A DNA stretch of 64,000 bases from Sedimenticola sp. (GTDB lineage Bacteria; Pseudomonadota; Gammaproteobacteria; Chromatiales; Chromatiaceae), in assembly GCA_002869585.1 (NCBI GenBank), contig PKUO01000070.1:1-64000 (forward strand), read 5' to 3'. The notes under the pieces are model-generated. The model had not been told where the DNA came from. It was given only the letters and a program-made list of their open reading frames with translations, and did not search any database. Shown in pieces: positions 8,222 through 64,000 of this stretch (the stretch's first letter is position 1; each line of letters begins with the position of its first letter). Position numbers and translations under genes: made by a program.

Positions 8222-8258
8222 TAGTGATCAATTGCCTGCAGGAACCGGGGGGTGTGCC

Positions 8259-9230: not shown

Positions 9231-9301
9231 TGTATAAGCCTCAGCAATGGGTTGGGATTGGGTCTATCGATGTCACGAGTCCGTACCTCAGTCAGGATGA
9301 A

Positions 9302-10150: not shown

Positions 10151-10280
10151 GATTACCTCCAGTGTCATTGATGGAATACCGCTGTTGGTTTTGTTATCCA
10201 ACTGAAGGTAATGCTAGAGATAACAGGCCTGGGCAGCTTGGGGGAAGTCTGGTCTTTTTATGGGGATTTTGTGTGGATGG

Positions 10281-11843: not shown

Positions 11844-12104
11844 ATACCGATGTGGGCATCTTAATAGAGGCTATGTTCAGCCGTCCTAAGTCGGCTTGAT
11901 GTCAGTATGAATCAATTCTGCGATATGTGCTGAAATCACTTTCTACGATGGCGCAAAGTTCTTACCCATGTCACTGTGGAATGTTTGGTTTTAATTACTA
12001 TAAGTGAAGACTTGAGCCCTTAAATGACCTAGTGGAGACCGGCACTGACTAGCACAGACTGACATCATAGTATGCAGGAGCAGGAGGGCATACACTTGGA
12101 AGTC

Positions 12105-12300
12105 AAAGCTCGGAAGGTGGCATAGGGTGCTTTGTGGAAGTGTTCGATCGGCAATTTTTTTCGAGTATCTTGAAGGATTTTCTGAGCATGGGATTTTTCA
12201 TGGTATTTGCCGCGTGTAACAAGGCAGGAACTATCGACACCATGAGAGGCAGATTGATGCTGTCATGGTATTTATGGCGCTCGGCTGATAGGCATATTGA
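12105..12300. repeat. Dispersed intergenic repeat, copy 7 (class II)
   Basis: Left end GAAGGTGGCATAGGGTGCTT, then GTGGAAGTGTTCGATCGGCA, CTTGAAGGATTTTCTGAGCA, the core TGGGATTTTTCATGGTATTT and the class II middle CACCATGAGAGGCAGATTGA followed by TGCTGTCATGGTATTT. Closest to copy 4. It occupies most of the region between the regulator start (11843) and vapC; 11844-12100 holds nothing I can identify. Confidence 0.7.
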
Positions 12301-12390
12301 TGACCGCATTATGAGCCACAGAGTGTGGGTAGGGGAGTCGCAGCACTCTATGCCAAACATTTGCACGCTGGATTTCAGATAATCCAGAGG

Positions 12391-12756
12391 TTATTCGTCA
12401 AACGCCAGTTTCATCTCGCTTGTAACTTTCTTCAATCGTTTATCGCCTGTCCAGAGCCTGGCATTTTTCGCCAATGCGGTTGCTGCAAGCAGATGAATAT
12501 CAATATAACCGACTCCCAGTCCCATCAGTTGATGACTTTCGATAAAGTACAGTGCCTCTGCTGGAGTGGCGACCGGTGACTGTGGAAGGTCATTGAGCAG
12601 TTTGAGAATTTCATCGCGGTTACGCAAATTGCCGCATGCCAGTTCACCTACGACAAAAGGGTGTGCCAGTACCTGACTTCGGGCAAGTAAATCAGCAAGT
12701 CGGGTATCGCCGGAGCGCAGATGGTCGATCCAGATCGAAGTATCGACCAGGATCAT
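12391..12756 (-). CDS. vapC: VapC-family PIN-domain ribonuclease toxin
   Basis: A 121-residue protein, MILVDTSIWIDHLRSGDTRL, with all four acidic residues of the PIN active site visible: D5, E38 (VVGELACG), D86 (GYIDIHLL) and D105 (WTGDKRL). VapC toxins are Mg-dependent endoribonucleases that cut tRNA or rRNA. The length is normal and the gene looks functional. Its ATG overlaps the vapB stop (AATGA), which indicates coupled translation. Because vapB carries a premature TAG, an active toxin would lack its partner unless the antitoxin is supplied another way. Confidence 0.93.
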   Translation of the reverse strand: MILVDTSIWIDHLRSGDTRLADLLARSQVLAHPFVVGELACGNLRNRDEILKLLNDLPQSPVATPAEALYFIESHQLMGLGVGYIDIHLLAATALAKNARLWTGDKRLKKVTSEMKLAFDE

Positions 12757-12953
12757 TTTGCAGGAGCGGACTGGCGACGAGGTATTGGTTTCAACTGAGG
12801 CTCGCTTCCCCCCAGTCGCGCCAACCGGCGAGCGCTCTCTCTTTCAATCAGGGCGCGCAGTCCTTCTCGAACGAGAGCAGTTTTCTAGCTCACCCCGGTA
12901 ATCCGCTGAGCCTCTTCCAGTAACTGGTCATCGATGTTCAGTGTGGTTCTCAA
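12753..12953 (-). pseudogene. vapB: VapB-type antitoxin with in-frame TAG at codon 23
   Basis: From a TTG at 12953, preceded by GGAGGGGG at good spacing, the frame reads RTTLNIDDQLLEEAQRITGV-S, TAG (12885-12887), then KTALVREGLRALIERESARR, LARLGGSEPQLKPIPRRQ and the stop overlapping vapC. The family sequence at the break is normally GVSEKTALVREGL, so TAG stands exactly where GAG (Glu) is expected, one G-to-T change. With that codon restored this is a standard 66-residue ribbon-helix-helix VapB. No good downstream start precedes the toxin-binding part. Confidence 0.8.
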
Positions 12954-13137
12954 AAGTAATCCCCCTCCATCAGAAGGCATGATATATGACATCAAATGAT
13001 GTTATATTTTATGCTGTGATTGCGCAAGGGCGTGTCGTTGATTGGAGCCTGTTGGCCGACATTTACAAGCATTGGTGAACAATATTTACTTTCGCGGTCA
13101 CCCAGTACCTTTAAAAAAGCATCCCTGATACAGTTGA

Positions 13138-13187
13138 CTGTACTATTACAGTATACTAGACTGCATTTAAGCACTGTAGTAATACAG
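13138..13187. promoter_or_regulatory. Two palindromic operator-like sites upstream of the Xre-RES operon
   Basis: CTGTACTATTACAG (13138-13151) and CTGTAGTAATACAG (13174-13187) are near-identical palindromes of the form CTGTA-nTAn-TACAG, 36 bp centre to centre. They lie 25-74 bp upstream of the xre start, where the promoter must be. They are the natural candidates for autorepression by the Xre antitoxin. Confidence 0.6.
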
Positions 13188-13211
13188 TATAAAGGTGTTT
13201 AGGTGGTAATC

Positions 13212-13610
13212 ATGATCGCTCAAGTCGAACAACTGCTGCAACGAGGTTCCAGTGTCACCAGTTCACTACTGCCGGCGATTTTCAATATATTTAGCCAATG
13301 GCGTCTGACCGGCGTCCAGCAGATGGCCCTGCTGGGGCTCAGCAACGAGAAGACCCTCTATAACTGGAAGAGCCAGCCGGAAAAGGCCAAGCTGACGCGG
13401 GATCTGTTGGAGCGAGCCAGCTACATTCTCGGGATCTACAAGTCCCTGCAAATCCTGCTGCCCGACCGGGCATTGGCCGACCAGTGGCTGGCAACCCCCA
13501 ATGACAATCCGCTGTTTAACGGCACTGCCCCGCTGGACCGGATGCTGGCCGGGCAAGTGGTCGATCTGGCTGTGGTCAGGAATTTCCTCGATGCAGAACG
13601 GGGTGGCTGA
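13212..13610 (+). CDS. Xre/MbcA/ParS-family antitoxin of a RES-Xre system
   Basis: The ATG at 13212 follows AGGTGG at ideal spacing, so it is chosen over the GTG at 13203. The 132-residue protein has an N-terminal Xre-like helical domain (FNIFSQWRLTGVQQMALLGL, NEKTLYNWKSQPEKAKLTRD) and the C-terminal DUF2384 toxin-binding segment (LADQWLATPNDNPLFNGTAP, LDRMLAGQVVDLAVVRNFLD). It should neutralise the RES toxin that starts on its stop codon and repress the promoter through the two palindromes upstream. Intact. Confidence 0.92.
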   Translation: MIAQVEQLLQRGSSVTSSLLPAIFNIFSQWRLTGVQQMALLGLSNEKTLYNWKSQPEKAKLTRDLLERASYILGIYKSLQILLPDRALADQWLATPNDNPLFNGTAPLDRMLAGQVVDLAVVRNFLDAERGG

Positions 13611-14302
13611 TGATTGACATCAATACGCTACCCAGTAGCGTGGTCAATGAACCGGTCTACCGGGTCATACTGTCTCGCTATCCTCAGATCCACCTGTTCG
13701 AGCGCGTCTCAAATCCACAGGATTGGGACGTGCTCTATGCCGTGGAGTCCCTCACTAACCCTCGGCTGCGCGATGAGGTGGGCGATATTCGCCTGGTACC
13801 ACCGGAAGAGCGCGTCTATGGTGACGGCTCCTCCTGGATCATGGCTGCCTTTACTCACCCGCCAGTGGACAGTCGCGGCGGCCGCTTCAATCGCGATTTT
13901 GGCATCTATTACTGTGCCGCCGATGAAACGGTGGTCATCGCAGAATCATCCTTCCATCGGGCACGATTCCTGCGCGAGTCCAGAATCGACAAGACCACCC
14001 AGGAAATGCGCGTAATCCGCGCGCAGCTGGGGCCGACAACCCTTCAAGATGTGCGGCACCTGGTCGGAGACGCCATCTACGATCCCGATGATTATGGTGA
14101 AGCACAGATACTCGGCAACACGCTGCGGGCTGTTAATAGCTTCGGCATTCACTACCAAAGCGTGAGAGTGAAAGGGGAGTGTTATGGGGTGATGCGTCCC
14201 AAGGCGCTTTCGGATGCCATTCACTGGCGTTATCTGCGCTACCACTATGACCAAGGGACGATCATTGACGTTGAATCCCTTGATATTAGTGGCAGGAAGT
14301 GA
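13610..14302 (+). CDS. RES-domain toxin (NAD-degrading family)
   Basis: A 230-residue protein with MIDINTLPSSVVNEPVYRVI, a GGRFN-type motif (DSRGGRFNRDFGIYYCAADE), a glutamate in VVIAESSFHRARFL and the C-terminal VRVKGECYGVMRPKALSDAI. The R-x-Y...GGRFN...Y...E...S arrangement is that of RES toxins, which break down NAD+ and halt growth. Its start overlaps the antitoxin stop (TGATG). It is somewhat longer than the commonest RES toxins of about 150-190 residues. The downstream exonuclease gene overlaps its stop, so three genes form one operon. Confidence 0.9.
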   Translation: MIDINTLPSSVVNEPVYRVILSRYPQIHLFERVSNPQDWDVLYAVESLTNPRLRDEVGDIRLVPPEERVYGDGSSWIMAAFTHPPVDSRGGRFNRDFGIYYCAADETVVIAESSFHRARFLRESRIDKTTQEMRVIRAQLGPTTLQDVRHLVGDAIYDPDDYGEAQILGNTLRAVNSFGIHYQSVRVKGECYGVMRPKALSDAIHWRYLRYHYDQGTIIDVESLDISGRK

Positions 14303-14898
14303 TGGCAATGTACAACGAGCTGCTATGGATCTTCACCCAACTCCCGGACGATTACATCGTCCTCGATACCGAAACCACCGGGCTTCCTGACGAAAACGGA
14401 CTGCCAGATATCGTAACGATTGGTATGACCGTGGTGAGAAAACGAGAGATAGCGGAATCCGTCGAGTTCAAGACACGACCACAAAAACAGATTTCAGAAG
14501 AAGCGCAGTCGATACACGGTATAAGTAACGGACAGGCTGCCGAATTCGAATCCTTCGATTCCGAGTGGTACCAGATTACCGGATACCTGAAGGATCAACT
14601 TATCGTCATTCATAACGCGAGTTTTGACTGGCCGATCCTGTTGGATCATGTGGCCCGACACGGTTTAACAATGCCACCAATACAAGGTGTATTTTGCAGT
14701 CAGAAAGCAGCTATTCCCTGGGCACAGGCGAGGGATTTGCCGTGCAGTCACAGAGGTCCATCGTTAGATACGTTAACGAAAGTACTTTGTGTGGAAAATC
14801 TTAGGGATAAGAGGGGTGGTTATCATGAGGCGGTGGCTGATTGTCAGCTGGCAGTGAAGGTTGTGGAAGGCCTAAGGAAATATAACCCTCAAAACTAA
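14302..14898 (+). CDS. DEDDh-family 3'-5' exonuclease in the RES-Xre operon
   Basis: Starting at the ATG 14302 that overlaps the RES stop, the 198-residue protein has all exonuclease motifs: D22/E24 in VLDTETTGLPD, D109 in HNASFDWPIL, and H175...D180 in GYHEAVADC. This is the DnaQ/RNase T superfamily (DEDDh), which removes nucleotides from 3' ends of DNA or RNA. The first motif is immediately preceded by a short N-terminus, with no other domain. Its coupling to a toxin-antitoxin pair is unusual and suggests a shared role or transfer as a unit. Confidence 0.88.
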   Translation: MAMYNELLWIFTQLPDDYIVLDTETTGLPDENGLPDIVTIGMTVVRKREIAESVEFKTRPQKQISEEAQSIHGISNGQAAEFESFDSEWYQITGYLKDQLIVIHNASFDWPILLDHVARHGLTMPPIQGVFCSQKAAIPWAQARDLPCSHRGPSLDTLTKVLCVENLRDKRGGYHEAVADCQLAVKVVEGLRKYNPQN

Positions 14899-15526
14899 TC
14901 ACGATTGTCTGTAGGTCCGGGAGCAAAACCGGCTGCCCCGCCGATGTCGGGCGGGGCAATATCAGGCTGAAAAATACAGAAAAAACAAGGTAGTATGGGA
15001 TGAGTGCTTGTCATTGAACAGACTGCAATCCCGCTAGCACGGTATCTTCTTCGAGGCTTTCCATATGTCCAGGTCAGCATAGCTATGTCGTGACACACAG
15101 AAATGCCGGTGCAGGGCACGGATTGTTTGGTGTCCGCAGTTGGCCATTGCTGAATACATCTTCTGAGCTGGAGTCGGTGTTGTCGAATTCGAGCCCCTTC
15201 TGGATTAAACCGCTGGATAGAATATCGAGTCGAGCAGGGACGTGAGTAATTCCTGTGTCCCGTTAATGGTTGAAAACGATAGAAAAAGAAGAGAGTATCT
15301 TGTACGGATGTAAAAACAGCAGGAAAGAAACGGAAACACTGGCAGTTCTGGATAACAAAGATCACGTGTCAGACGGACTCTGGTGGCATTGATTACTAGG
15401 TGCCATTGGTAGTGCTCATTGAAAGTAAATTCCTGTCCCTTGCTCCCCTGTACCGCCAGAATCGCCCGCGGGGTAGGCGGATACGCATAGAACACAAGTG
15501 GCTATAAAACCAAAGCAGAACATTTC
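14899..15526. other. Gene-free interval upstream of the GH13 gene
   Basis: About 630 bases without a credible gene. A strong GC hairpin at 14935-14957 (GCCCCGCC / GGCGGGGC) follows the exonuclease gene and may act as a transcription terminator, although no T-run follows. The remainder has stop codons in all frames and no repeat I can identify. A promoter for the GH13 gene should lie near its 3' end. Confidence 0.5.
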
Positions 15527-17338
15527 ATGTCCAAACACCCAGACAACGACGCACAGACCCTTCCACAAGGCGTGATGCTGAACGCCTATCCAGATAGCAT
15601 CGGCAAGAGACTGGCCGATACAGTTGAATTACTCAAGCGGCCCGAGCTCAAGGACGCCTTTTCGCTGTTCTATATTCTCCCCACTTTTTTCAACAGTGAT
15701 CTGGATCGCGGCTTTTCCATAATTGATTACGACATCAATGATGAACTTGTTGCCCCGGAGGATCTGGAAGCGCTGAACACGCTGAATATCGGCTTCAAAC
15801 TCGACCTGGTGCTCAATCACCTGTCGGTGCGCTCTCCGCAGTTCCAGGATCTGCTGCTGCGTGGTGATGATTCACCTTACAAGGACTTCTTTCTCGACTG
15901 GAACGCGTTCTGGCTCGAGCACGGCACCATGGACCCGAACGGTAACGTCATTCCTGATGAAAAGCACCTGCAGAAGCTTTTTATGAGGAAGCCGGATCTG
16001 CCAATCCTAAAGGTGTGCTTTCCTGATGGTTCGCGCCGACTTTACTGGAACACCTTCTATCAGGAGGTGACCTTTGTCGAGATCGCACCACACGACTTCG
16101 TCGGCATCGAAGGGATACATCTGGACCAGGCCAAGACTATCGCCTCGGCCGTCAAGGAGGCTATTCATGCTCAGGCCGACCTGGAAGAATTGGATCTGGT
16201 GGAGTTATCGCATTATAAGGAGGAAGTTCTGAAGGTGGTATGCCGCAAGCGCGAGTACTTGGGCCAGATGGACCTGAACGCGCGCTCCGAGCTGGTTTGG
16301 GCATTCTACGATGACACCCTGAAGAAGCTCCGTGACTACGGTGCCAAGATCATCCGCCTCGATGCCTTCGCCTACCTGCACAAAGAGCCCGGCGAGGCCA
16401 ATTTCTTCAACAGACCCGGCACTTGGAATTATCTGGAACGTCTGCGGAGACTCGCACAGAAGTACGATCTGATCATCTTCCCCGAGGTGCACGCCGAATA
16501 CGGCAGTGGCCTGCATGAGGAAGTCTCTGCGAAGGGGTACCCGATCTACGATTTCTTTTTCCCCGGTCTGGTGATCGATGCCCTTGATCGTGGCGCCAAT
16601 GAAGCCCTGCTGCGCTGGATCGACGAGATCAAGACTAAGGGATTGCAGACCATCAACATGCTTGGGTGCCATGACGGTATCCCGGTGCTTGACCTCAGAG
16701 GTAAACAGGTCGACGGAACCTATAGCCCCGGCCTGCTGGAGGATCAGCAGATCGAGGCCGCCATGGAGCGAATCATCAGCCGCGGCGGACGGGTCAAAAA
16801 CCTGTTCGGCCACGACGGTAAGCAGATCTCTTACTACCAGGTCAATGCAACCTTCTTCAGCGCACTGGGCGAGAATGAGCACAAGATGCGCCTGGCCCGC
16901 GCCATCCAGATGTTTATGCCTGGCATTCCGCAAGTCTGGTACCTGGATCTGTTCACCGGCAAGAACGACTACGAAGCCGCTGATAATGGCGGGATCGCCG
17001 GGCACAAGGAGATCAACCGCACAACACTCAGCCTGGAAGACATCGACGCTCGCTTGCAGCTGCCTATTGTGCAGGACCAGATTGAGCTGATTCGGCTGCG
17101 CAACCGCTCACCGGCCTTCAAGGGCGAGCTTACTATTCTTGATAGCGAACCCCATATGTTACACATCACCTGGCGGCACCCAAAGGCCACCGCGACGCTG
17201 AAGGCCAATCTGCGCAGGCACAGCTTCAGCATCGCGGAGAGTGACGGGGGCAGCGAGGAGGCCCGGGTGACGATCGAAGCTCCCGGCAACGGGTCCGGAC
17301 CCACCTACGACAGTGCATCGAACGGAGCACGCGCATGA
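15527..17338 (+). CDS. GH13 (sucrose-phosphorylase-like subfamily) glycoside phosphorylase/hydrolase
   Basis: A 603-residue cytoplasmic protein with no signal peptide. GH13 hallmarks: LDLVLNHLS (93-100, region I), IIRLDAFAYL with nucleophile D279, IIFPEVHAEY with acid/base E320, and NMLGCHDGIP with H382-D383 stabilising the transition state. The LNAYPDSIG start and the GCHDGIPVLDLRG loop are typical of the GH13_18 group, which includes sucrose phosphorylase and glucosylglycerol or glucosylglycerate phosphorylases. It is about 100 residues longer than classic sucrose phosphorylase, with an extra segment near 130-245. The next gene, a sucrose-phosphate-phosphatase-like HAD enzyme, overlaps it by four bases, so both probably act on one compatible-solute pathway. 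Confidence 0.85.
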   Translation: MSKHPDNDAQTLPQGVMLNAYPDSIGKRLADTVELLKRPELKDAFSLFYILPTFFNSDLDRGFSIIDYDINDELVAPEDLEALNTLNIGFKLDLVLNHLSVRSPQFQDLLLRGDDSPYKDFFLDWNAFWLEHGTMDPNGNVIPDEKHLQKLFMRKPDLPILKVCFPDGSRRLYWNTFYQEVTFVEIAPHDFVGIEGIHLDQAKTIASAVKEAIHAQADLEELDLVELSHYKEEVLKVVCRKREYLGQMDLNARSELVWAFYDDTLKKLRDYGAKIIRLDAFAYLHKEPGEANFFNRPGTWNYLERLRRLAQKYDLIIFPEVHAEYGSGLHEEVSAKGYPIYDFFFPGLVIDALDRGANEALLRWIDEIKTKGLQTINMLGCHDGIPVLDLRGKQVDGTYSPGLLEDQQIEAAMERIISRGGRVKNLFGHDGKQISYYQVNATFFSALGENEHKMRLARAIQMFMPGIPQVWYLDLFTGKNDYEAADNGGIAGHKEINRTTLSLEDIDARLQLPIVQDQIELIRLRNRSPAFKGELTILDSEPHMLHITWRHPKATATLKANLRRHSFSIAESDGGSEEARVTIEAPGNGSGPTYDSASNGARA

Positions 17339-18285
17339 GAATTCTCGCCACCGACCTGGACCGGACACTTCTGCCGAACGGCAGCTGGCCGGCCGACCCC
17401 GACGCCATCAACCTGTTTAACGATTTGACCAGGAGGAACGATGTACTGGTCGTCTATGTCACCGGTCGCAATCTGAACCTCGCTGAAAGCGCTATCGAGG
17501 AGTTCGGTATACGTCATCCCGATTTTCTGATCGGCGACGTTGGCACATCGATCCGAAAATTCGAACAGGGCCAGTGGCAGGCACACCGCGGCTGGGATGA
17601 ACACGTCAAACGGTCCAGCCCACGCTGGGATGCCGAAGCGATCCGCCGGGCTGTTGCCGACATGTACGGTCTGACAGAGCAGGAGCGCGAACATTGTGGT
17701 CCCTTCAAGCAGAGCTACTACGTCGACCATGATCGCAGCGAGGAAATTCTGATGGCAGTCGACAAACAGGTGAAAGGCAGGTTCGACGAGGTCATCGTTT
17801 ACAGTTTCGACTCACAAACCGGTAAGGGCCTGCTCGACTTCCTGCCGGACAGCGCGACCAAGCAGACCGCGCTCGAATATGTTGCCGCAGAACTTGGCGA
17901 GGATAAGGCCGATGTCATCTTTTGCGGCGACAGCGGCAATGATGTTTTTCCGCTCACGGCGGGTTTCTCCGGTGTCCTGGTGCGCAATGCCGACGACCAA
18001 CTCGTAGCCAGCGTCAAACAGGCAGCCGAGGCGAACCCGGAACTCAAGATATACTTCGCCAAAGGTGACTTCAAAGGACTGAACGGTTACTACACCAGCG
18101 GCGTCATCGAAGGTGCGTACCACTATGGTCTCTTCGCGGACGCCGATTTAGCTGGATTCCTGACGATATCAATGGGAGTGTGTATACACACCAGAGGCAT
18201 AACTCATGCGAGCAACGCCTCTGGTAAACTCTGTGGGCATGGTTTCAGTCTTGTCATGACTGTATTCTGGGCAGGTGATGATTGA
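17335..18285 (+). CDS. HAD-type sugar phosphatase (sucrose-6-phosphate-phosphatase-like)
   Basis: A 316-residue protein starting MRILATDLDRTLLPNG, with motif I DLDRT (nucleophile and acid/base Asp), motif II VYVTGRN, and motif IV FCGDSGNDVFPLTAGFSGVL. The cap contains SYYVDHDRSEE and KGLLDFLPDSATKQTALEYV. This is the S6PP-like branch of Cof-type HAD phosphatases, which remove phosphate from sucrose-6-phosphate or glucosylglycerol/glucosylglycerate phosphate. Its ATG overlaps the GH13 stop. After GVIEGAYHYGLF the last 40 residues (rich in Gly, Ser, Cys, Met) do not look like the family, so the original stop may have been lost and the frame extended. Confidence 0.82.
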   Translation: MRILATDLDRTLLPNGSWPADPDAINLFNDLTRRNDVLVVYVTGRNLNLAESAIEEFGIRHPDFLIGDVGTSIRKFEQGQWQAHRGWDEHVKRSSPRWDAEAIRRAVADMYGLTEQEREHCGPFKQSYYVDHDRSEEILMAVDKQVKGRFDEVIVYSFDSQTGKGLLDFLPDSATKQTALEYVAAELGEDKADVIFCGDSGNDVFPLTAGFSGVLVRNADDQLVASVKQAAEANPELKIYFAKGDFKGLNGYYTSGVIEGAYHYGLFADADLAGFLTISMGVCIHTRGITHASNASGKLCGHGFSLVMTVFWAGDD

Positions 18286-18335
18286 GGCGAAGATCATCCT
18301 GAAACATAAGCGGTGATTTCCTCTGTCGAAAGCCT

Positions 18336-21300
18336 TCAATTCCTGGAACTGAGCCAGCCCTTTATCGTACCGATCAGCCAGATCAGTGCCGTGACCATAC
18401 CCTGCCAGAGTCTCAGTCCGAGGGGAGTTTTTGCTACATGAGCCTTTGTCTCTTCCAGGGTCTCGCCTTCTATGTCCACGTAATCCGATGACAAGCACAT
18501 ATCGCCGTTTTCATCCTGTTGCAGATAGAACTGTTTGCGGGCGCTGATGCAGCCCAGCGGGATGATCACAACAGCCATCAGAGTGGCGACACCAGCGCCG
18601 AACAACAGACTGACCGCCATGCCCTGAAAAATCGGGTCGTCGATAATCGCCCAGGCACCGGCCATCAGGGTCAGCGAGGTGATGAAGATCGGACGCATGC
18701 GAATCTCGGCACCGGCCACGGCCGCCTCCCTGACACACTTGCCTTTGGCCACTTCGATCTTCACGAACTCGACGATCAGGATCGACTGGCGAACGATGAT
18801 GCCACCCAGGGCGATCAGGCCGATCATGGAGGTGGCAGTGAAATCCGCACCCATGATCAGATGACCGGGGATGATGCCAATCAGCGTCAGTGGTATGGGT
18901 GACATGATCAGACCCGCCAAGGCAAAGTTTCTGAATTCCCAGACAATCAGGCCATAGATCAAAATCAGGGCAGCCATGAAGGCAAGGCCCATGTCGCGAA
19001 AAGTCTCATAGGTGACGGTCCACTCGCCGGTCCATTCAAAGCCCGACTGGTAATCGCTGTCGGGTGGTCCGATCAGTCCCCCCGGCATACCGCTGATCTT
19101 AACGCCATCGGGAGTGGTGTAGTTTTCGAGCTGATCCTCGACCCCAAACATCCCGTAGATGGGCGCACCGAGCCTGCCCTCCATTTCACCCACTACATAC
19201 TCCATCGGGCGCAGATCCTTGTGATAGATGATGGGATCTTCTGCGGTTTTGATAAATCGTCCCAATTCAGACAGAGGCACGGTTTGCCCCTTGGTTGATT
19301 GTATGGGCAGGCTGGCCAGGCGGCGCAGATCCGCACGGTAGTTCAGCGGTACCTGCATCACGATATAGGTGGGCTCCTGCACGGTACCGCGCTTGATATC
19401 ACCCAGCTTGAATCCCCCCATGGCCATGGCCAGATTCTGATTGATGGCATCCACCGTGATACCTTGGCGCACCGCTTTTTCCACATCCACTTCAAAGCGC
19501 CAGTAGTGGTATGGCTCGCTCATGTAGTTATCGGCATCGACGATATTCGGCGTTAGCTCAAACATGCGGGTCAGATCTGTGGAGACCCTTTTCCTGATCT
19601 CGGTCGTTGGACCATAGACCTCTGCGACCACCGTCTGCAGTACCGGCGGTCCGGGTGGCATCTCCACCACAGCAATACGCGCTCCCAGCTCTTGAGCCAG
19701 GGGCGTGAGCAGATGGCGTGCCTCTACCGCCAGTTGGTGGCTGCCTTTTTTACGCTCTTTTTTATCCTTGAGCATGACCAGCAGATCGCCCTCCCAGGCC
19801 TGGTCGCGCAGGTAGTAATGGCGCACCATACCATTGAAGTTGAACGGTTGGGCCGTACCCGCATAGGACTGCACGGCTATCACCTCGGGAAGCGCCTGCA
19901 CCTTAACGGCAAGCTTGCGCACCACATTGGCGGTAACAGGCAGTGGCGTGCCTTCCGGCATATTCACCACAACGCTGAATTCAGGCTTGTTATCGAATGG
20001 CAGCATCTTTACTGGCACGGTCTGGGTGTAGAACAGGGCACAGACCAGTGCGGTGAGAACGATAGTACTGATAAGGAAGGTCTTGCCCAGCAGGCGGTTG
20101 TTGATCAATGGATCAATGATTGGCCGGTAAAGCCGATTTACCAGATCATGGGTTTTCTTTTCACGGTTTTCGGATTTGACCAGCGCCTCCATCTTTGGGC
20201 GCATGCGCAGGGCAAACCAGGGAGTAAATACAAAGGCCGCAATCAGGGAGAAGAACATGGCCGAAGAGCCCAGCACGGGAATAGGGCGCATGTAAGGCCC
20301 CATCAGCCCGCTGACCCAACCCATCGGCAACAGTGCGGCGATGATGGTGAAGGTGGCAAGTATGGTTGGGTTGCCCACCTCGTCCACTGCGCGCACGGCA
20401 TTGGCGATGGAGGTGTTGTCTTCCTCGAGCCAGTGTCGAAAAATATTTTCGACCACTACCGTGGCGTCGTCCACCAGAATACCGATGGAGAAGATCAGTG
20501 CAAACAGGCTCACCCGGTCGATAGTGTAGTCCACCATCCAGGCCCACCAGATAGTGAGCAGAATCACTACCGGGATGACCATGATCACCACAAAGGCGGC
20601 GCGGGCGCCCAGGCCAACCAAGCAGAGAATTGCGACGATAAAGGCAGCCTCGAACATTGCCTGAAGTAACTCGTTGACCTTGTCGTTGGCGGTCTTGCCG
20701 TAATCCCGGGTGATCTCCACATTGACATTGTTGGGGATCAGACGGCCTTTGAGGGTCTCCAGTTTATCCAGCAGCGCCCGGGTGACGGTCACGCCGTTGG
20801 AACCGATCTTTTTTGCAATGGCGATGGTGACTGCCTGTTCGCCGTCAGCCGGATGCTCGCCGGTATAGGCCGGACCGGTAAAGTGCGTGACCAGCTGGGT
20901 GGTATCTTCCGGGCGGTGTTTTACTATGGCTACGTCGCGCACATGAACCGGACTTCCGCCATGGCTGCCCACGATCAGACCGGCGATCTCCTCGGAATTT
21001 TGCAGAAAGCCGCCACTGGCCACCCGGAAGCTGCCATCACGGGATTCGATGTAACCGGCAGGGCTCTCTGTGTTGGCATTTTGGATAGTGCTGGCAATTC
21101 GATCCAGGGTGATGCCGTAGCCGGACATGCGATCCAGCTGAACATCGATGCTCACCTGCTCGGCACGACCACCCACCACGAAGCCTTTCCCCGTGTTGGG
21201 CACGGTACCCAGTTCCTGCAGCACGTCGTGGGCCAGGGCGCGGAGTTGATCGTCTTCGATGGCCTTTGACCAGAGGGTGATAGTAAGAACCGGTACATCA

Positions 21301-56756: not shown

Positions 56757-56833
<77 letters not shown>

Positions 56834-56848
56834 AATAAAAATCAATAA

Positions 56849-56878
56849 AACCAATCACTTAAGGTGGTTGGTTTTTTT
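56849..56878 (+). terminator. Rho-independent terminator after tRNA-fMet
   Basis: The arms AACCAATCAC / GTGGTTGGTT (one G-T pair) are separated by a 5-base loop and followed by Ts to 56878. Ends the tRNA transcript; it lies inside or at the edge of the integrated island. Confidence 0.8.
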
Positions 56879-56902
56879 GTTTCTGCAGTGCAAAAACACT
56901 CC

Positions 56903-56946
56903 GGGCCCACCTCGGGCCCATCCAGAGCCCACCTCGGGCCCACGCA
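56903..56946. repeat. Four tandem 11-bp GGGCCCA repeats
   Basis: Units starting at 56903, 56914, 56925 and 56936 read GGGCCCACCTC, GGGCCCATCCA, GAGCCCACCTC and GGGCCCACGCA. The 11-bp period is about one helical turn, placing palindromic GGGCCC on one DNA face. It sits right after the tRNA terminator, at the island's left edge, and may be a protein-binding array. Confidence 0.6.
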
Positions 56947-56978
56947 CTTTTTCACACATACCCAAAAAGCGCATATTT

Positions 56979-57755: not shown

Positions 57756-57992
57756 ATGTCTATGACTTACCTGACAACTGATGAACTCTCACAACGCATC
57801 AAGTATGACCCACGCACTATCCGCGAACGGTTGAAGGATAGTGTGCTGCTGGAAGGCACCCATTACATCCGTCCCTTTGGCGGTCGCAAGATCCTCTATA
57901 TCTGGGAACAGATCGAAGCGGATATGGGCCAGAGCTCTGTGAATGGCACCTTTGCTATCCCCATGGCCAATGGAGGGGTCTGTAATGGTTAA
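57756..57992 (+). CDS. Small HTH DNA-binding protein, probable excisionase/directionality factor
   Basis: ATG 57756, preceded by AAGAAGGTG, gives a 78-residue protein: MSMTYLTTDELSQRIKYDPR, TIRERLKDSVLLEGTHYIRP and FGGRKILYIWEQIEADMG. The helix-turn-helix at about residues 6-30 followed by a GGRKILYIW wing is the MerR/AlpA-like excisionase layout. It overlaps the integrase start by eight bases, so both are translated from one message. Such proteins bend DNA at attachment sites and favour excision. An upstream in-frame start at 57618 would add a leader that looks non-coding. Confidence 0.7.
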   Translation: MSMTYLTTDELSQRIKYDPRTIRERLKDSVLLEGTHYIRPFGGRKILYIWEQIEADMGQSSVNGTFAIPMANGGVCNG

Positions 57993-59208
57993 TATCAGAC
58001 AACGCAGTGATACCGGTAAATTGTTCTTTGATTTCCGCTACCAGGGGAATCGATGCCGGGAGTACACCGATCTCAATGATACGAAGACCAACCGCAAGAA
58101 AATGGCTGTGGTGGCCAAGCGAATGGATAAGGAACTGCAGAGCGGTGAGTTTGACTATGAAAAGTACTTTCCCAACAGCAACAACCTGAAGTCCTTTTCA
58201 TTAAATAATGGTGTTGTGGCAGGGGCTGTGCCTTCTCAAATGTCGCAACTGGCCCAGCGTACACCGACTTTCCAAGTCTTCGCCGAAACCTGGTACAGCG
58301 AGAATGAGATCGCCTGGCGGCGTACCCATCAGAAGACGGTGGCTGACATCCTGCGCAAACACCTGATGCCCGCCTTTGGAGAAAGGGTGGTCGGCAGCAT
58401 CACCAAGGCTGAGATTATGGCCTTCCGTTCGACCCTCGCAAAAGTGTCCGGACGGAAAGGCAATGGACTCTCTCCCAAACGCATCAACGCCATCATGGGC
58501 GTGCTGCGCCAAATCCTTAACGAAGCCGCCGACCGCTTTGACTTTACCACTCCCTTTCTCAACATCAAACCACTGAAGGTCCCCAAATCCCATGTGGAAC
58601 CCTTCACCCTGGACGAAGTACAGCGGATTATCGAAACGGTCAGGGCTGATTACCGGGCCTACTACACTGTTCGCTTCTTCACCGGACTGCGTACCGGCGA
58701 GATCGACGGACTCAAATGGCAGTACATCGACTTTGATCACCGCCTCATCCTGATCCGCGAAACGGTGGTCAATGGCCAGGAGGACTACACCAAGAACGAT
58801 GGCTCCCAACGGGAGATCCAGATGTCACAGGTGGTCTATGACGCCCTCAGGGAACAAGCGAAGGTCTCAAAGGGGATTTCGAAATATGTTTTCTGTAACC
58901 GTGAGGGGACTCATTTGGATCACAACAACGTGACCAAGCGGGTCTGGTATCCACTGCTCAGGTATCTGGGACTGAAAGAGCGAAGGCCCTATCAGACCCG
59001 CCATACCGCCGCCACCCTCTGGCTGGCCGCCGGAGAGAATCCGGAATGGATCGCCCGTCAGATGGGCCACGCCTCCACCGAGATGCTGTTTAAGGTCTAC
59101 AGCCGCTATGTCCCCAATCTCACCCGACAGGACGGCTCAGCCTTCGAGCGGCTGCTTAAGGCGAACTTCACACATAACCCGGGGGAGGTTACCAACCATG
59201 ACAACTAA
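57985..59208 (+). CDS. int: Tyrosine-recombinase integrase
   Basis: ATG 57985, after GGAGGGG, gives 407 residues. The N-terminal DUF3596-like arm-binding part is MVNIRQRSDTGKLFFDFRYQ, GNRCREYTDLNDTKTNRKKM; the core-binding SAM-like domain spans about 93-200; the catalytic domain has R236 (FFTGLRTGEIDGLKWQ), R339 with Tyr in place of the usual first His (RPYQTRHTAATLWLAAG), H362 (ARQMGHAST) and nucleophile Y372 (VYSRYVPN). It mediates site-specific integration, most likely at the tRNA-fMet 3' end 1.1 kb upstream. It belongs to integrative elements of proteobacteria. Confidence 0.95.
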   Translation: MVNIRQRSDTGKLFFDFRYQGNRCREYTDLNDTKTNRKKMAVVAKRMDKELQSGEFDYEKYFPNSNNLKSFSLNNGVVAGAVPSQMSQLAQRTPTFQVFAETWYSENEIAWRRTHQKTVADILRKHLMPAFGERVVGSITKAEIMAFRSTLAKVSGRKGNGLSPKRINAIMGVLRQILNEAADRFDFTTPFLNIKPLKVPKSHVEPFTLDEVQRIIETVRADYRAYYTVRFFTGLRTGEIDGLKWQYIDFDHRLILIRETVVNGQEDYTKNDGSQREIQMSQVVYDALREQAKVSKGISKYVFCNREGTHLDHNNVTKRVWYPLLRYLGLKERRPYQTRHTAATLWLAAGENPEWIARQMGHASTEMLFKVYSRYVPNLTRQDGSAFERLLKANFTHNPGEVTNHDN

Positions 59209-59509
59209 AACACCCATGCCTCTGTATCAGCGCATCCACACAGAAACGGCCTATCTGCACCGGGAGCAGCTGGTGTTTGAGATCGCCAATGCCATCACCG
59301 TCAGTTTCAACCTCCGGGGGGATGGCCATCAACTCCAACCCCTGTTCGATGCGGGAGGGTGCAGCACGGATGAGGAGATCCTGCTCGAGTGGATCGTTCA
59401 GCGTCTCATGGCCTGGGAACAGGACCAGGCCCATCACCTTGTCACCCAGCTCATCGATGAGTTGGACAAGGCCCTGCTGGCCGAAGGAGGCCTGTCATGT
59501 CAGAGATAA
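59198..59509 (+). CDS. Hypothetical island protein
   Basis: A 103-residue acidic protein (MTTKTPMPLYQRIHTETAYL, EIANAITVSFNLRGDGHQLQ, EEILLEWIVQRLMAWEQDQA). It overlaps the integrase stop by 11 bases and the HD-protein start by 13, with GGGGGAGG as ribosome site, so it is a real member of the operon. Mostly alpha-helical by eye. No cysteine pair, HTH or catalytic motif stands out and I recognise no family. Genes in this position are often accessory proteins of integrative elements, but no function can be assigned. Confidence 0.65.
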   Translation: MTTKTPMPLYQRIHTETAYLHREQLVFEIANAITVSFNLRGDGHQLQPLFDAGGCSTDEEILLEWIVQRLMAWEQDQAHHLVTQLIDELDKALLAEGGLSCQR

Positions 59510-60459
59510 TCACACTCCACCCGAATAAAGCACCCGAGCAGACGGGTATCAGAAATACCGTATTCAGAGTCCTGGGGATACAGAGCAATGTACGGTTCAG
59601 CAAGGGTGCGCGAGGGGCCATCATTGAGATCGGTAACAGTCATCGCTGTAACCAGGTCGTTGCATACTACCCCCCAGCGTATTGTGCGTATGAGGGTGAT
59701 CTGCCCAAAGTGGATCGTTGCCTACAGGGTAGTCTTTCCTGGGATCAGGGGATAGATGGCTACTGGGCACTACTCCGTGGTCAATCGGTTGATCCGGGTG
59801 AATACGGACCGGCTCTGATTCCCCGCGTTGATGCGACACATCCGGGTGATCTGGATAGGCTGATACAGACTATCGCTTGCGTGCAGATACCCGAGATAAA
59901 GGCCTTCTTGTGCGCAGTGTTTGCCGAACCCGAGATTTACCGGCCGTATGTCGCAGTGCCTTCGAGCCTAAAGTATCACCACAACCGGGTAGGCGGCAAT
60001 CTGGAACACAGCCTGGATACCCTGGATATCGCCCTTCGAATGCACCTGTGTCGGAATCAGACCGAGCAGGATCTGTTGATTGTCGGGGCATTGTTGCATG
60101 ACATTGGCAAGATAAGGGTCTACGACACCGATAACCAGTTAACGGGTACGGGCAGGCTGGTACACCATGCCTCGCTGACCGGTGAGATTCTTGCGGTGCA
60201 TCTCCGGGCACTACACACGCAATCCCCGAATAAAGCTAATCTGATACGTCATTTACTGGATCGGGGGGATAAGCACTACCCTTATCCCATCTCAATGGTG
60301 CGAAAGGTCTTGGCGTATGCCGATGGACTCAGCGCAGCCATAGAGGCAGAACGTAGCGCCTTCCAGGACAAACCGGATTATTACTGGTATGGCTGGGATA
60401 ATGCGGGTTGTCAATGGATACGGGTGATGGAGTGGTCTGATCAATGCTGTCTGACGTAA
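59497..60459 (+). CDS. HD-domain phosphohydrolase of the integrated element
   Basis: A 320-residue protein. The metal-binding HD motifs are visible: H161-H162 in KYHHNRVGGNLEHSLDTLD, H171, H201-D202 in GALLHDIGKIRVY, and H223-H224 in RLVHHASLTGE. The first 110 residues form a less conserved domain (VLGIQSNVRFSKGARGAIIE). HD proteins of this kind, related to YhaM and the TraI_2 domain, occur in integrative conjugative elements and act as nucleases or phosphodiesterases. The closing IRVMEWSDQC resembles the end of the element-borne group. The substrate is unknown. Confidence 0.8.
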   Translation: MSEIITLHPNKAPEQTGIRNTVFRVLGIQSNVRFSKGARGAIIEIGNSHRCNQVVAYYPPAYCAYEGDLPKVDRCLQGSLSWDQGIDGYWALLRGQSVDPGEYGPALIPRVDATHPGDLDRLIQTIACVQIPEIKAFLCAVFAEPEIYRPYVAVPSSLKYHHNRVGGNLEHSLDTLDIALRMHLCRNQTEQDLLIVGALLHDIGKIRVYDTDNQLTGTGRLVHHASLTGEILAVHLRALHTQSPNKANLIRHLLDRGDKHYPYPISMVRKVLAYADGLSAAIEAERSAFQDKPDYYWYGWDNAGCQWIRVMEWSDQCCLT

Positions 60460-60494: not shown

Positions 60495-61112
60495 TTAGGT
60501 GCCAGCGCTCGTGTGAACCATCACTGGATAGCCTGCATCTAGAACCTTTACCAAACTGTCTGGTGTGAGAACGCTCACCTCGGTTGGGGGCTGCAGTATC
60601 GTTGGGGTTCGATAGCCATCGAAAGTCCATTCCCATAACTTGCCTCGCCACCATAGGTGAGGGCGACTTTCTGACTCAGGCAAGACCATCACCCCGTCGG
60701 GTAGTTCGGACAGATAGGCAATTGCGTAATTGCGATGCAGACGCTCCATATGGAGACGTTTATCCATCTCTTTCAGATCAAGTCCGACGGAAAGAGGAAC
60801 GCTCATTGCCACCCTCCAACAGTCTTTGAATCTAACGAGTGCCTCCTTCCGACAAGTGCCGCATGGACGGTGCCCTGCAGCCAACGACGTGGATTCATCG
60901 AGAAAAAAAAGCTCAGTGTAATGTCCGGGTTCCATGATGGACCGATGACGATTGCGAAACTCCGTTAGGCAGGTTACCCATTCCTTGCGTTTGAAAGAGC
61001 GCACGAGCTGTCCGTTAGTTAAATGAAGGTTGCCACGATTGCCCATTAACATGCCTCGTTGTGTGACGGCATGAATGTCACCAAACGGATCAACACGATT
61101 CTGACGTGGCAT
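60495..61112 (-). CDS. Conserved hypothetical protein with Ada-like GHRPC..C motif
   Basis: A 205-residue protein: MPRQNRVDPFGDIHAVTQRG, MLMGNRGNLHLTNGQLVRSF, LTEFRNRHRSIMEPGHYTEL, FFLDESTSLAAGHRPCGTCR and LKEMDKRLHMERLHRNYAIA. It belongs to a widespread proteobacterial family without a known function. The FFLDE...A-GHRPC-x-x-C segment (C84, C87) resembles the metal-binding end of Ada-type DNA-repair domains, where cysteines bind zinc; this resemblance is my inference. A second conserved block is LWWRGKLWEWTFDGY. The gene lies convergent to the HD gene and 17 bp downstream of the nuclease-like gene. Confidence 0.7.
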   Translation of the reverse strand: MPRQNRVDPFGDIHAVTQRGMLMGNRGNLHLTNGQLVRSFKRKEWVTCLTEFRNRHRSIMEPGHYTELFFLDESTSLAAGHRPCGTCRKEALVRFKDCWRVAMSVPLSVGLDLKEMDKRLHMERLHRNYAIAYLSELPDGVMVLPESESRPHLWWRGKLWEWTFDGYRTPTILQPPTEVSVLTPDSLVKVLDAGYPVMVHTSAGT

Positions 61113-61129: not shown

Positions 61130-62281
61130 TTAGTTAGGTGAGTGAACATAATGGAAACAGATATTATTCTCGTTGGCAATGCCACTTATTGTGGCAAGGA
61201 CGTCATGATGGATCGGATAAGGTCGCAGATCCACACCGATAAATAGAAACGCAGTATCTGGTATATCAAGGCTGAGTCGCTGTGCTGCTCCATTGATAAC
61301 CACTTTCCATTGATTAAGCTTTTCGATGTCTTTTCTGTAGATGTTCTGCAAGGTCGAGTCTTTTTTGCCCAGCAATGGCCTACCACCCTTGACCTCGACC
61401 AATAGTTTAAGCATCGAAAGCTTCAGTGAATCATAGCTACGTGAGGTGTTGCCTTCAGGATATAAGTTGAAGTGTCCATCCACCCCAGGTGCAAAAAGAC
61501 AAATATCCGGACGTTGATGCATATTGCCTGGTGCGAAATTAAAATAGGTTTCAAGGGCAATTTGTTTTGCTGAGTAACCCTGAGCGAGGAGCGAGCGATA
61601 GATGATGGTTACAATATCGGCTTCAAGCTGAATCGATTGCGAGGCAGCTATCAAATCACGCTCGACGCCTTGTCTGGTTATTAATGTGCTCAGATCGATG
61701 GACTTACCTGAAATTTCTGGTTGCATTGTGCCAATCTCAGGATAACGTACACGTCCTCCAGATGGTGCGAGCAGAAATGTTTTGTCACCATGCCCGTGGT
61801 AGGCAAAGCTCACATTGTATGAACCTGCTGTTTCCGCAGCACGAATTTGTTTGCGATAGCTGAGGGATCTCCCCAGTTCAATTGCGTCCACGGCAACCAG
61901 CCATCTGTGTGCTGGGACAACCTTAAGCTTTGATAGTTTGTTCATGTCCTGGCAATTGCCATCTTCTGTGAATACATCCTGCAAGGCATTTCGGCTGTTG
62001 TAGGCACCTCCCTTGAGCTCAAAAGCTGCCAGTGCCTCACCTTCTTCACTCAGAACCACGACATCAACTCCACCTCGCCCCGTTTCAGCCATTCTATGCT
62101 CTCGGCGCACTTTGCCCGGATACTCTTTCTCAAGCTCGACGGCAAGAAGCACCTGATAGTTCGCTTCCGATCCGACGATACCATTTGCCTTGGTGAAAAA
62201 TTGATTGAGGGCGCGCTCAATGGCCTTGTTGTCAGCGCTTTTATCCTCGTCGCCCATTGGCAATATAGAGTCTGAATTCAT
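61130..62281 (-). CDS. Protein with two PD-(D/E)XK-like nuclease motif sets
   Basis: ATG 62281, with AAGGA seven bases upstream, gives 383 residues; the ATG at 62299 lacks a ribosome site. Two restriction-nuclease-like motifs are visible: D73...E88-x-K90 in RGGVDVVVLSEEGEALAAFE-LKGG, and D259...E296-x-K298 in MHQRPDICLFAPGVD ... LLVEVKGGRP. Between them a segment (about 120-240) holds WLVAVDAIELGRSLSYRKQI. Both carry the D-(E/D)-x-K catalytic pattern of Mg-dependent endonucleases. Many defence or repair nucleases have one such domain; a tandem pair is unusual. It sits between an unknown protein and a CRISPR locus. No known family recognised. Confidence 0.7.
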   Translation of the reverse strand: MNSDSILPMGDEDKSADNKAIERALNQFFTKANGIVGSEANYQVLLAVELEKEYPGKVRREHRMAETGRGGVDVVVLSEEGEALAAFELKGGAYNSRNALQDVFTEDGNCQDMNKLSKLKVVPAHRWLVAVDAIELGRSLSYRKQIRAAETAGSYNVSFAYHGHGDKTFLLAPSGGRVRYPEIGTMQPEISGKSIDLSTLITRQGVERDLIAASQSIQLEADIVTIIYRSLLAQGYSAKQIALETYFNFAPGNMHQRPDICLFAPGVDGHFNLYPEGNTSRSYDSLKLSMLKLLVEVKGGRPLLGKKDSTLQNIYRKDIEKLNQWKVVINGAAQRLSLDIPDTAFLFIGVDLRPYPIHHDVLATISGIANENNICFHYVHSPN

Positions 62282-62324
62282 GCTGTATTCCTTCATCATT
62301 TGTTAACGGTGGAGGTTCTTATGA

Positions 62325-62640: not shown

Positions 62641-62797
62641 TGTATAATTTCATACTGCACTAATTGGTTTTTCAGTTTGATAGAAGTATGGGTATTTAAT
62701 CGTGAAAAGAGGTAATCTGTAAGCTTGCAGCCCGATTGTAATGAGCAATATACTGGAATAATTGCTGCATTCATCAGGATTAGGGAGAAACCTATCA

Positions 62798-63733
62798 ATG
62801 CTTCAGTTATCAAGATACCGTTTTACTCTGCAGGCGCAAGACCCGATTCATCTCCCTTCTTTCCCGGGGTCAGCCCTTCGTGGGGTATTTGGACACGGAC
62901 TAAAACGGAGCGTCTGCGTTACCAATCTTCCTGACTGCACTGAGTGCGCTTTGCGCACACAATGTGTCTATAGTTATCTCTTTGAAACTGCATTGTTTTT
63001 CAGCAAGGGTAGTAACGCTCCCCATCCTCTGATTTTTGATATACAAGGGCTCGAAATGCGATATGGGCCAGGAATGCAGTTCCATATCGAGATCACCCTA
63101 ATCGGTGATGCTATCCGGCATCTTCCCTATGTCATCCAGGCTTGGAGACGAGCAGGCACACGGGGACTCGGACAGAAGCAAGCCAAATTTTCCCTTGATC
63201 AGGTAGATGTTCTTGATTTTCAGGCGGGATCCTGGCGGCAGCTCATGCCCAAGGCGGATGATGCAGGGACTCCTCCAACCTGGAATGGTATCCCACACAG
63301 TCCCTCTCACCCTCTTCTACAGGCCTCGATAGAGCTATCCACTCCCTATCGTGGGAAGCTAGGTGGTCATCTAGTTACACCGGATCGTTTCAGCGCCCAG
63401 GGTTTTGTGGTTGCCCTAATCAAGCGGATATATTCGCTGCAGCAACTGCATGATCCAAGCCGCGAACCACTTGATACCGAAACTCTGGTACAGGCTGCCG
63501 CGGGGCTAGAGCTCAAGTCGAGCCAGTTGCGCTGGAAAGAATGGACACGTCACTCATCCCGGCAACGCACCCATATGCAAATGGGAGGTGTAACCGGCGT
63601 TTTTACCCTGGCTGGTGAGGGGCTGGATTTACTCTGGCAGGTATTGCAACTGGGGCAATGGTTACATGCAGGGAAAAGCACCCTATTTGGCCTTGGCCGC
63701 TACCGGGTAGTGGCGCAGGAATATCAACCGTGA
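62798..63733 (+). CDS. cas6: CRISPR RNA-processing endoribonuclease Cas6 (RAMP)
   Basis: ATG 62798 gives 311 residues: MLQLSRYRFTLQAQDPIHLP, SFPGSALRGVFGHGLKRSVC, a four-Cys cluster (C40, C47, C50, C56 in CVTNLPDCTECALRTQCVYS), YSYLFET, and the C-terminal glycine-rich RAMP loop AGKSTLFGLGRYRV (291-304). The N-terminal GSALRG and the CxxC-Y-x-x-LFE block are typical of the Cas6 branch found with type III systems. It cuts the pre-crRNA within repeats. The next gene starts on its stop codon (GTGA). No CRISPR array is inside the window. Confidence 0.9.
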   Translation: MLQLSRYRFTLQAQDPIHLPSFPGSALRGVFGHGLKRSVCVTNLPDCTECALRTQCVYSYLFETALFFSKGSNAPHPLIFDIQGLEMRYGPGMQFHIEITLIGDAIRHLPYVIQAWRRAGTRGLGQKQAKFSLDQVDVLDFQAGSWRQLMPKADDAGTPPTWNGIPHSPSHPLLQASIELSTPYRGKLGGHLVTPDRFSAQGFVVALIKRIYSLQQLHDPSREPLDTETLVQAAAGLELKSSQLRWKEWTRHSSRQRTHMQMGGVTGVFTLAGEGLDLLWQVLQLGQWLHAGKSTLFGLGRYRVVAQEYQP

Positions 63734-64000
63734 AACCGTCTCCTGTCCGGGATAGCAAGACGCTGCTATGTGTAACAGGTCTATCTCCCCAGGTGGTGAC
63801 AGAGACCCTGTTTGCACTTTCTGTGGAACATAACTGGATACCCGACCGGATTCGACTTATCACCACCACAGAAGGGGCCAAAAGAGCGCGTCTCAGTCTG
63901 TTGTCGGAAGACCTAGGCTGGTTTCAGAGATTGTGTGACGATTATCAGTTGCCCTTCATCCGCTTTACGGATGAGGATATCCTGGTATTGGAGCAGAATG
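63730..64000 (+). CDS. CRISPR-associated ring nuclease / Csm6-type protein, NE0113 family (N-terminal part)
   Basis: A GTG at 63730 overlaps the cas6 stop by four bases. The visible 90 residues read KTLLCVTGLSPQVVTETLFA, then WIPDRIRLITTTEGAKRARL and LPFIRFTDEDILVLEQN before the edge. LLCVTGLSPQVVTETLxAL with LITTxEGxxR is the signature of the NE0113 family, a CARF-type fold that binds or degrades cyclic oligoadenylate in type III CRISPR immunity. Whether a HEPN ribonuclease domain follows cannot be seen. The close packing with cas6 shows a CRISPR operon continuing past the window. Confidence 0.8.
   Translation, partial: MKPSPVRDSKTLLCVTGLSPQVVTETLFALSVEHNWIPDRIRLITTTEGAKRARLSLLSEDLGWFQRLCDDYQLPFIRFTDEDILVLEQN

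Follow-up and report, generated by a model that had tools for sequence, protein, structure and literature searches.

A rare family of tandem PD-(D/E)XK nuclease-like proteins found in Sedimenticola sp. and other bacteria, mostly near mobile-element genes

Introduction

Cleavage of both DNA strands by members of the PD-(D/E)XK superfamily usually needs two domains facing each other on the DNA, commonly by dimerization. NucC and the Type IIF restriction enzymes oligomerize and in this way bring two active sites to the DNA. Card1, Can2, and other CARF-PD-(D/E)XK nucleases carry a CARF sensor together with the nuclease domain. The tandem PD-(D/E)XK architecture has a precedent in Wolbachia CinB (CifB types II to V, of cytoplasmic incompatibility), which has two PD-(D/E)XK domains per chain with both sites conserved and is encoded in a two-gene operon (PMC8787490, PMC7046167). 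DNase activity of CinB depends on the two domains together, and the nuclease lysines of the wNo protein are K275 and K629 (PMC8787490). Tandem nucleases have also been described in a defense setting for the CoCoNuTs (coiled-coil nuclease tandems of type IV restriction), systems of the McrBC type that include GTPases and coiled coils (PMC11090510).

Here, we describe a protein with two PD-(D/E)XK-like domains encoded in a 64,000-nucleotide stretch of contig PKUO01000070.1 from Sedimenticola sp. (the window, meaning this whole stretch). The layout of two domains and two conserved sites in one chain and the two-gene arrangement resemble those of CinB, but CinB is much longer and differs in partner, host biology, and gene order, since cinA precedes cinB and the tandem nuclease comes first in its pair. 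The position of a cognate CifA gene is not matched at this locus: the nuclease gene comes first in its transcription unit, with divergent cas6 ahead of it, and its same-strand neighbor, which lies downstream, matches the candidate-defense family PDC-S40. Unlike in the CoCoNuTs, no GTPase or coiled-coil gene was recognized at the tandem nuclease, and neither a methylase nor a cyclase was recognized beside it in the window. Literature searches by topic on tandem nucleases and PDC-S40 returned the CinB precedent and nothing on the tandem-nuclease family, and no paper naming PDC-S40 was found.

Results

The longest form of the tandem-nuclease open reading frame (ORF; 61130 to 62299, minus strand) encodes 389 amino acids from the first in-frame ATG at 62299. 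When the sequence was read by eye, AAGGA was found 7 nt upstream of the ATG at 62281 and no AAGGA-like sequence was found ahead of the ATG at 62299; because the motif precedes only the former, the 62281 start was preferred, giving a protein of 383 residues (Table 1). Residue numbers used here are those of the 389-amino-acid form, and subtracting 6 converts them to those of the initial annotation (D73 is D79, and D259 is D265). The two D...E-x-K motifs reported there were confirmed, and all six catalytic residues (D79, E94, K96, D265, E302, and K304) were invariant in the window protein and its four relatives. A bare pair of such motifs, taken alone, is weak evidence for a nuclease. Among 41 ORFs of at least 250 amino acids from stretches of the same genome (contigs C26 and C91, both strands, with spurious frames and the tandem-nuclease gene included), a loose D-x(8-40)-[ED]-x-K pattern was present two or more times in 19, and a stricter pattern with strand-like hydrophobic residues occurred twice in the tandem nuclease alone. 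As loose motif pairs are this common in local ORFs, the case for a nuclease must rest on homology.

Table 1. Features of the window and of the related gene pair in S. hydrogenitrophicus
Feature	Position	Strand	Details or basis
Tandem PD-(D/E)XK protein gene	61130..62281	-	383 aa; ORF analysis, AAGGA before start, homologues
Likely ribosome-binding site AAGGA for the 62281 start	62289..62293	-	By eye
Domain 1, residues ~40-180 (389-aa numbering), restriction-endonuclease-like core	61760..62182	-	AF2 model
Domain 2, residues ~215-388, restriction-endonuclease-like core, paralogous to domain 1	61136..61657	-	Model and hhalign
Active-site motif 1, D79...E94-L-K96	62012..62065	-	Invariant in 5/5 homologues
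Active-site motif 2, RPD265...E302-V-K304	61388..61507	-	Invariant in 5/5 homologues
Downstream gene, PDC-S40 candidate-defense family, GHRPCxxCR motif	60495..61112	-	205 aa; PADLOC E value, 3.9e-75
HD-domain protein	59497..60459		320 aa; between integrase and PDC-S40 gene
Tyrosine integrase, island marker	57943..59208	+	PF00589, 1.3e-20; PF12167, 3.2e-22
tRNA-Met, possible integration site	56757..56833	+	ARAGORN
cas6, first gene of divergent type III-A CRISPR-Cas locus	62762..63733	+	PADLOC Cas6, 3.2e-90
S. hydrogenitrophicus pair (locus L029)	Nuclease 10755-11876, then PDC-S40 11889-12518		Same gene order

Four relatives of the window protein were identified, sharing 29 to 53% identity with it: those of Sedimenticola hydrogenitrophicus (53%), Thiohalocapsa sp. 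ML1 (40%), Thiocystis violacea (29%), and Litorilituus lipolyticus. The family was present in 4 of 210 genomes searched from the same order, the window's own genome included. A profile scan of an 84,980-species collection, which was based on two short peptide patterns and may have missed distant relatives, returned four loci, namely the three same-order relatives and L. lipolyticus. Profile searches of a 369-genome draw from the class and of 247 genomes from the order of Litorilituus identified one member each, the window's own genome and Litorilituus itself, respectively, and no family member was found in viral contigs. When the window protein alone was used as a query, no close relative was returned from genome contigs, viral contigs, plasmids, or phages, a contig search with a portion of the protein was likewise empty, and only the protein itself matched in 92 related genomes. 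Class and phylum draws with this query gave only four other matches, all weak (E value, 0.002 to 0.01). The two weak class-draw matches were to unrelated long ORFs (PutA-like and LapB-like by eye) and were dropped as chance; one of the pair (L003) recurred by tblastn at 7e-4. The homologues of Thiocystis and Sedimenticola, used as queries, returned nothing from plasmids. The family is rare and patchy in its distribution. Identity is 49% between the copies of Thiocystis and Litorilituus and 28% between those of Thiocystis and Thiohalocapsa; Litorilituus belongs to a different order from the other hosts. Higher identity across orders than between these two same-order copies points to horizontal movement of the tandem nuclease between hosts.

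Pairwise identity among the five homologues ranged from 25 to 53%, and 56 of 351 gap-free columns in their alignment were invariant. Besides the six catalytic residues, glutamates on the first helix of each half (E45 and E226) and by strand 1 (E67 and E250) were identical in all five sequences, as were residues on the helix following strand 3 (D118 and L122 in domain 1; D324, K327, and L328 in domain 2). Searches of Pfam (window protein plus three homologues), NCBIfam (all five), and PHROGs (window protein) gave no match above noise, none of the five matched any PADLOC-DB 2.0.0 family at an E value of ≤0.1, and a PDB sequence search with the family returned no chain above noise. CifB was not among the three PDB sequences listed at an E value of ≤10, a result that covers PDB chains and is not a direct comparison with CifB. 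The family is new to the protein-family and defense libraries searched (Pfam, NCBIfam, PADLOC, and PHROGs), and the earlier description of the protein as uncharacterized was upheld.

A structure model from the single sequence was discarded (pLDDT, 31.9). The AF2 model generated from four sequences (pLDDT, 81.9; pTM, 0.85) comprised two complete alpha-beta-beta-beta-alpha-beta cores like those of restriction endonucleases. With H denoting helices and E strands, the order of elements was H45-59, E64-69, E77-83, E89-97, H117-123, E132-137, H148-160, and E164-168 in domain 1 and H226-239, E247-249, E266-269, E297-305, H314-341, E350-357, H365-377, and E381-386 in domain 2. D79 and D265 were placed at or beside strand 2, and E94/K96 and E302/K304 at or beside strand 3, so that both modeled halves display the core topology, the strand 2 aspartate, and the strand 3 ExK of the PD-(D/E)XK superfamily.

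At an E value of ≤0.001, Foldseek matched nothing in the PDB or viral libraries, and in its PDB list, nucleases (YaeQ, Bse634I, FokI, and Shedu) stood alongside unrelated folds such as clamp loaders and Rab GTPases. VIA-align neighbors falling mainly on the C-terminal half included BstEII, Bse634I, NucC, Card1, Can2, EndoMS, and Shedu (Z up to 8.3), and rows confined to the N-terminal half included YaeQ, DrdV, PaqCI, and 3ijm (Z, 5.2 to 5.8); Z scores of 5 to 8 are middling and lie in a range that is common by the tool's own scale. Most of the 50 VIA-align entries are PD-(D/E)XK proteins. A few caveats apply, since there are rows that extend over both halves and at least one entry in the list, a Rab complex, is no nuclease. 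More weight was given to the agreement among rows and to where the invariant residues lie than to any single Z score. By the terms of the initial annotation, a structure lacking a nuclease fold at either motif would have refuted its proposal; this check was run and came out in favor of the proposal, as two nuclease-like folds are supported by the invariant sites, the AF2 model, and the comparison of folds, with middling fold-match scores. The fold shared with NucC and the Type IIF enzymes Bse634I and Cfr10I (Z, 6.6 to 7.8) lies mainly in the C-terminal half, but the window protein has both sites in one chain and no sequence match to these enzymes. It has the PD-(D/E)XK domain in common with Card1, Can2, and other CARF-PD-(D/E)XK nucleases (Z, 6.3 to 7.5); unlike them, it has no CARF match in any of the five homologues, and both of its folded halves are nuclease-like.

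Comparison of the two halves with hhalign, using five-sequence profiles, aligned domain 1 with domain 2 over 129 columns (probability, 96.75; E value, 4.2e-10), and other settings gave an E value of 5e-9. None of 100 column-shuffled controls scored as high (best score, 9.8, against 54.4 observed). The alignment paired D79 with D265 and E94-K96 with E302-K304 at 16% identity between the halves. As single sequences, the halves matched each other in the Litorilituus (E value, 1.5e-5; probability, 79) and Thiocystis (2.9e-4; probability, 40) proteins and failed to do so in the other three homologues, and BLASTP between the halves of the window protein alone gave an E value of 0.16. Four other proteins used as controls matched neither half; these comparisons were of a single sequence with a profile, a weaker form than profile with profile, and one control was a 235-amino-acid Thiohalocapsa ORF that is nuclease-like by eye. 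Given profiles that align at this E value with no shuffle as good, the reading that fits the protein best is that one nuclease domain was duplicated in tandem, with neither site lost.

Each half would carry a complete site, made up of glutamates on the first helix and by strand 1, the strand 2 aspartate, the strand 3 ExK, and then a helix bearing a conserved aspartate and leucine. Because duplicated domains with conserved sites lie in one chain, the most likely arrangement is an intramolecular dimer of the two halves, which would cut both strands of double-stranded DNA; both the DNA substrate and double-strand cutting are inferred. The initial annotation had left open whether one domain binds and the other cuts or whether both cut opposite strands. 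The latter is favored, as the halves are paralogous and both sites are invariant in all five homologues. It is unlikely that only one domain cuts and the other, with its motif kept, mainly binds or positions DNA. The strong divergence of the halves is in keeping with such a division of labor, as is the CinB crystal, where a cation was seen only in the N-terminal nuclease domain (PMC8787490); in the same study, DNase activity was lost when catalytic residues were changed in one domain or the other, and in the family described here the helix and strand 1 glutamates of both halves are as invariant as the six catalytic residues.

The tandem nuclease is the first gene of its transcription unit, with divergent cas6 upstream and, on the same strand, the PDC-S40 gene 17 bp downstream; the two genes are probably cotranscribed. 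The downstream neighbor, earlier called an unknown Ada-like protein, is a clear member of PDC-S40 (Table 1), and its likeness to Ada consists of the GHRPCxxCR motif, which we compared by eye, with no Ada match in Pfam. In S. hydrogenitrophicus, order and strand are kept as in the window, the gap is 12 bp, and the identity is 56%. The S in the family name presumably denotes a single-gene candidate; unlike that listing, PDC-S40 here follows a nuclease gene in two genomes.

PDC-S40 adjoins the tandem nuclease at these two of the five loci and was absent from the flanks examined at the other three. That PDC-S40 always travels with the nuclease was rejected, since tblastn revealed no nuclease relative at any of the other full-length PDC-S40 loci compared. 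The loci compared were L005, L006, a second copy in the window's own genome (L007/L014), and eight plasmid loci picked from 32 matches, with flanks of only 1.5 kb for L005 to L007. As PDC-S40 is missing at three homologues and occurs elsewhere without the nuclease, it is not essential to the tandem nuclease. In two related genomes (L005 and L006), PDC-S40 lies beside an ORF that is rhodanese-like by eye. Two of the eight plasmid loci (L015 to L022) lie beside defense-like genes, namely a CBASS-like set of nucleotidyltransferase, ThiF, and Mov34 genes in Tsukamurella (L017) and restriction endonuclease and WYL genes in Pseudomonas luteola (L018), which slightly favors a defense role for PDC-S40; metabolic, transport, partition, or helicase genes were found at the other six. 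The second PDC-S40 gene of the window's own genome (L014, 9160 to 10215; contig C91) encodes 351 amino acids with an unexplained C-terminal extension, has no nuclease partner, and adjoins a gene that is conjugative coupling ATPase-like by eye.

Beyond the PDC-S40 gene lie the HD-domain protein gene, the integrase gene, and the tRNA-Met gene listed in Table 1. No 14-mer of positions 56757 to 56950 recurred on the same strand of the contig as a repeat of the tRNA-Met end that might bound an island. The HD-domain protein had a weak match to the MobH relaxase (E value, 3.4e-4, far below the cutoff), and it is possibly a relic of a conjugative element.

On the other side of the nuclease, the claimed proximity to a CRISPR locus was borne out: the divergent cas6 frame starts about 460 to 480 bp from the nuclease gene, and a type III-A set of cas6, a CARF protein gene, cas10, csm2 to csm5, and genes for CARF-HEPN and CARF-PDDEXK proteins runs past the end of the window. 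This set occupies 7762 to 19397 of locus L013 (contig C26), with its start at window positions 62762 to 64000, and encodes three CARF proteins (one PDDEXK, one HEPN, and one CARF5/Csx1-type) with CARF matches below 1e-129. A CARF-PD-(D/E)XK nuclease is encoded in the neighboring locus itself. No direct repeats of at least 24 bases, and no CRISPR array, were seen in L013 from 7600 to 19804. A position less than 0.5 kb from cas6 and the presence of the Card1, Can2, and Cdn1 nucleases among the fold neighbors would suit an ancillary effector of the type III-A locus, but the nuclease gene is transcribed divergently from it and has no PADLOC match, against strong matches to CARF models for three genes of that locus, and no cas gene was identified among the scanned neighbors of the four homologues; we regard such an effector role as very improbable.

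The surroundings of the homologues were compared with a PADLOC scan of 10 proteins neighboring the four, part of all neighbors, so the resulting counts are lower bounds and stand without a random-gene control. In S. hydrogenitrophicus, the gene pair lies about 4 to 6 kb from F-type conjugation matches, of which TraE is above the cutoff and TraB and TraK are below, and a neighboring helicase match (1.1e-15) is suggestive only. The Litorilituus nuclease gene lies 15 bp behind a gene without an assigned family. The segment also encodes a serine recombinase, whose matches to XisF and CcrB fall below the cutoff, and a candidate defense pair, PDC-M12, with AbiLi similarity (2.2e-37). The 216-amino-acid protein encoded upstream of the nuclease (L034, 7110 to 7760) is M15-type peptidase-like by eye and had no Pfam or PADLOC match.

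About 6 kb from the Thiocystis nuclease lies a gene whose match to a Tn3 transposase exceeds the cutoff. The nuclease gene is followed there by genes for a 904-amino-acid Sel1-repeat protein with a C-terminal kinase-like ATPase by eye, a 536-amino-acid protein of unknown type, and a NUDIX protein (L031, 689 to 7867), a possible operon; two of the neighboring proteins gave nothing usable in PADLOC (best E value, 0.0094). In Thiohalocapsa, the nuclease gene closes a run of genes on one strand (L030, 2203 to 14453) considered a candidate multigene defense operon, in which a HerA match in PADLOC (1.3e-56) is suggestive only. The run encodes a 1,432-amino-acid protein, further ORFs, the HerA-like ATPase, a 190-amino-acid ORF, a Ser/Thr kinase with TPR, the 235-amino-acid ORF, which by eye has a D...ExK motif of its own, and the nuclease.

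Mobile-element genes were found near four of the five loci (window, Sedimenticola, Thiocystis, and Litorilituus), and catalogued defense genes near two (the type III-A CRISPR genes in the window and the PDC-M12 pair in Litorilituus).

Discussion

We give roughly an even chance to the explanation that, as a whole, best fits these data: a duplicated twin-site nuclease that would cut both DNA strands and, together with PDC-S40, act as a mobile-element-borne defense. Computation showed a tandem duplication, two folds as predicted, conservation of both sites, a gene pair present at two loci, and mobile-element genes nearby. On this explanation, the gene would be carried on mobile elements as an accessory gene and would encode a single-chain nuclease that arose when one PD-(D/E)XK domain was duplicated in tandem; its most likely target is incoming phage or competing mobile DNA. 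In the window's genome, the Ada-like PDC-S40 protein may recognize the target or restrain the nuclease. A defense role, as proposed earlier, is the best single reading, and its support is circumstantial: mobile-element genes at four of five loci, catalogued defense genes at two, and a candidate-defense partner at two.

The same gene pairs, with their short gaps and their position near integrase or conjugation genes in the window and S. hydrogenitrophicus, could also be read as a toxin and its antidote, with the nuclease harming its own cell, PDC-S40 protecting it, and the island or conjugative element retained as a result. This was judged quite improbable. CinA-CinB offers a precedent of a nuclease with a cognate rescue factor (PMC8787490), but PDC-S40 is absent from the examined flank at three of five homologues, the nuclease gene comes first in both pairs, and PDC-S40 was found without the tandem nuclease at the other loci compared.

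A nuclease serving DNA repair or recombination of the mobile elements, rather than defense, is a markedly improbable reading. EndoMS is among the fold neighbors, the partner has an Ada-like motif by eye, and conjugative elements often carry repair genes. However, no recurring repair gene was seen beside the tandem nuclease, and one would expect an enzyme of repair to be more widespread than a family detected in 4 of 210 genomes of the order, 1 of 369 in the class draw, and four loci from 84,980 species.

A more specific form of the defense reading, which we regard as unlikely, would be a new two-component immune system in which PDC-S40 recognizes modified or invading DNA and licenses the double-strand cut of the twin-site nuclease, the relatives without this partner being coupled to different sensors carried by other mobile elements.

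If the preferred reading, the duplicated twin-site defense nuclease, is correct, it would add a nuclease family missing from the protein-family and defense libraries searched, and the PDC-S40 candidate family would gain a concrete partner. The mixed surroundings of PDC-S40 mean that its listing as a defense gene deserves a check. A compact internal duplication of 383 residues would provide, in a single-chain enzyme, the two catalytic sites that are otherwise usually brought together via dimerization, and these two active sites would be separately addressable by single substitutions.
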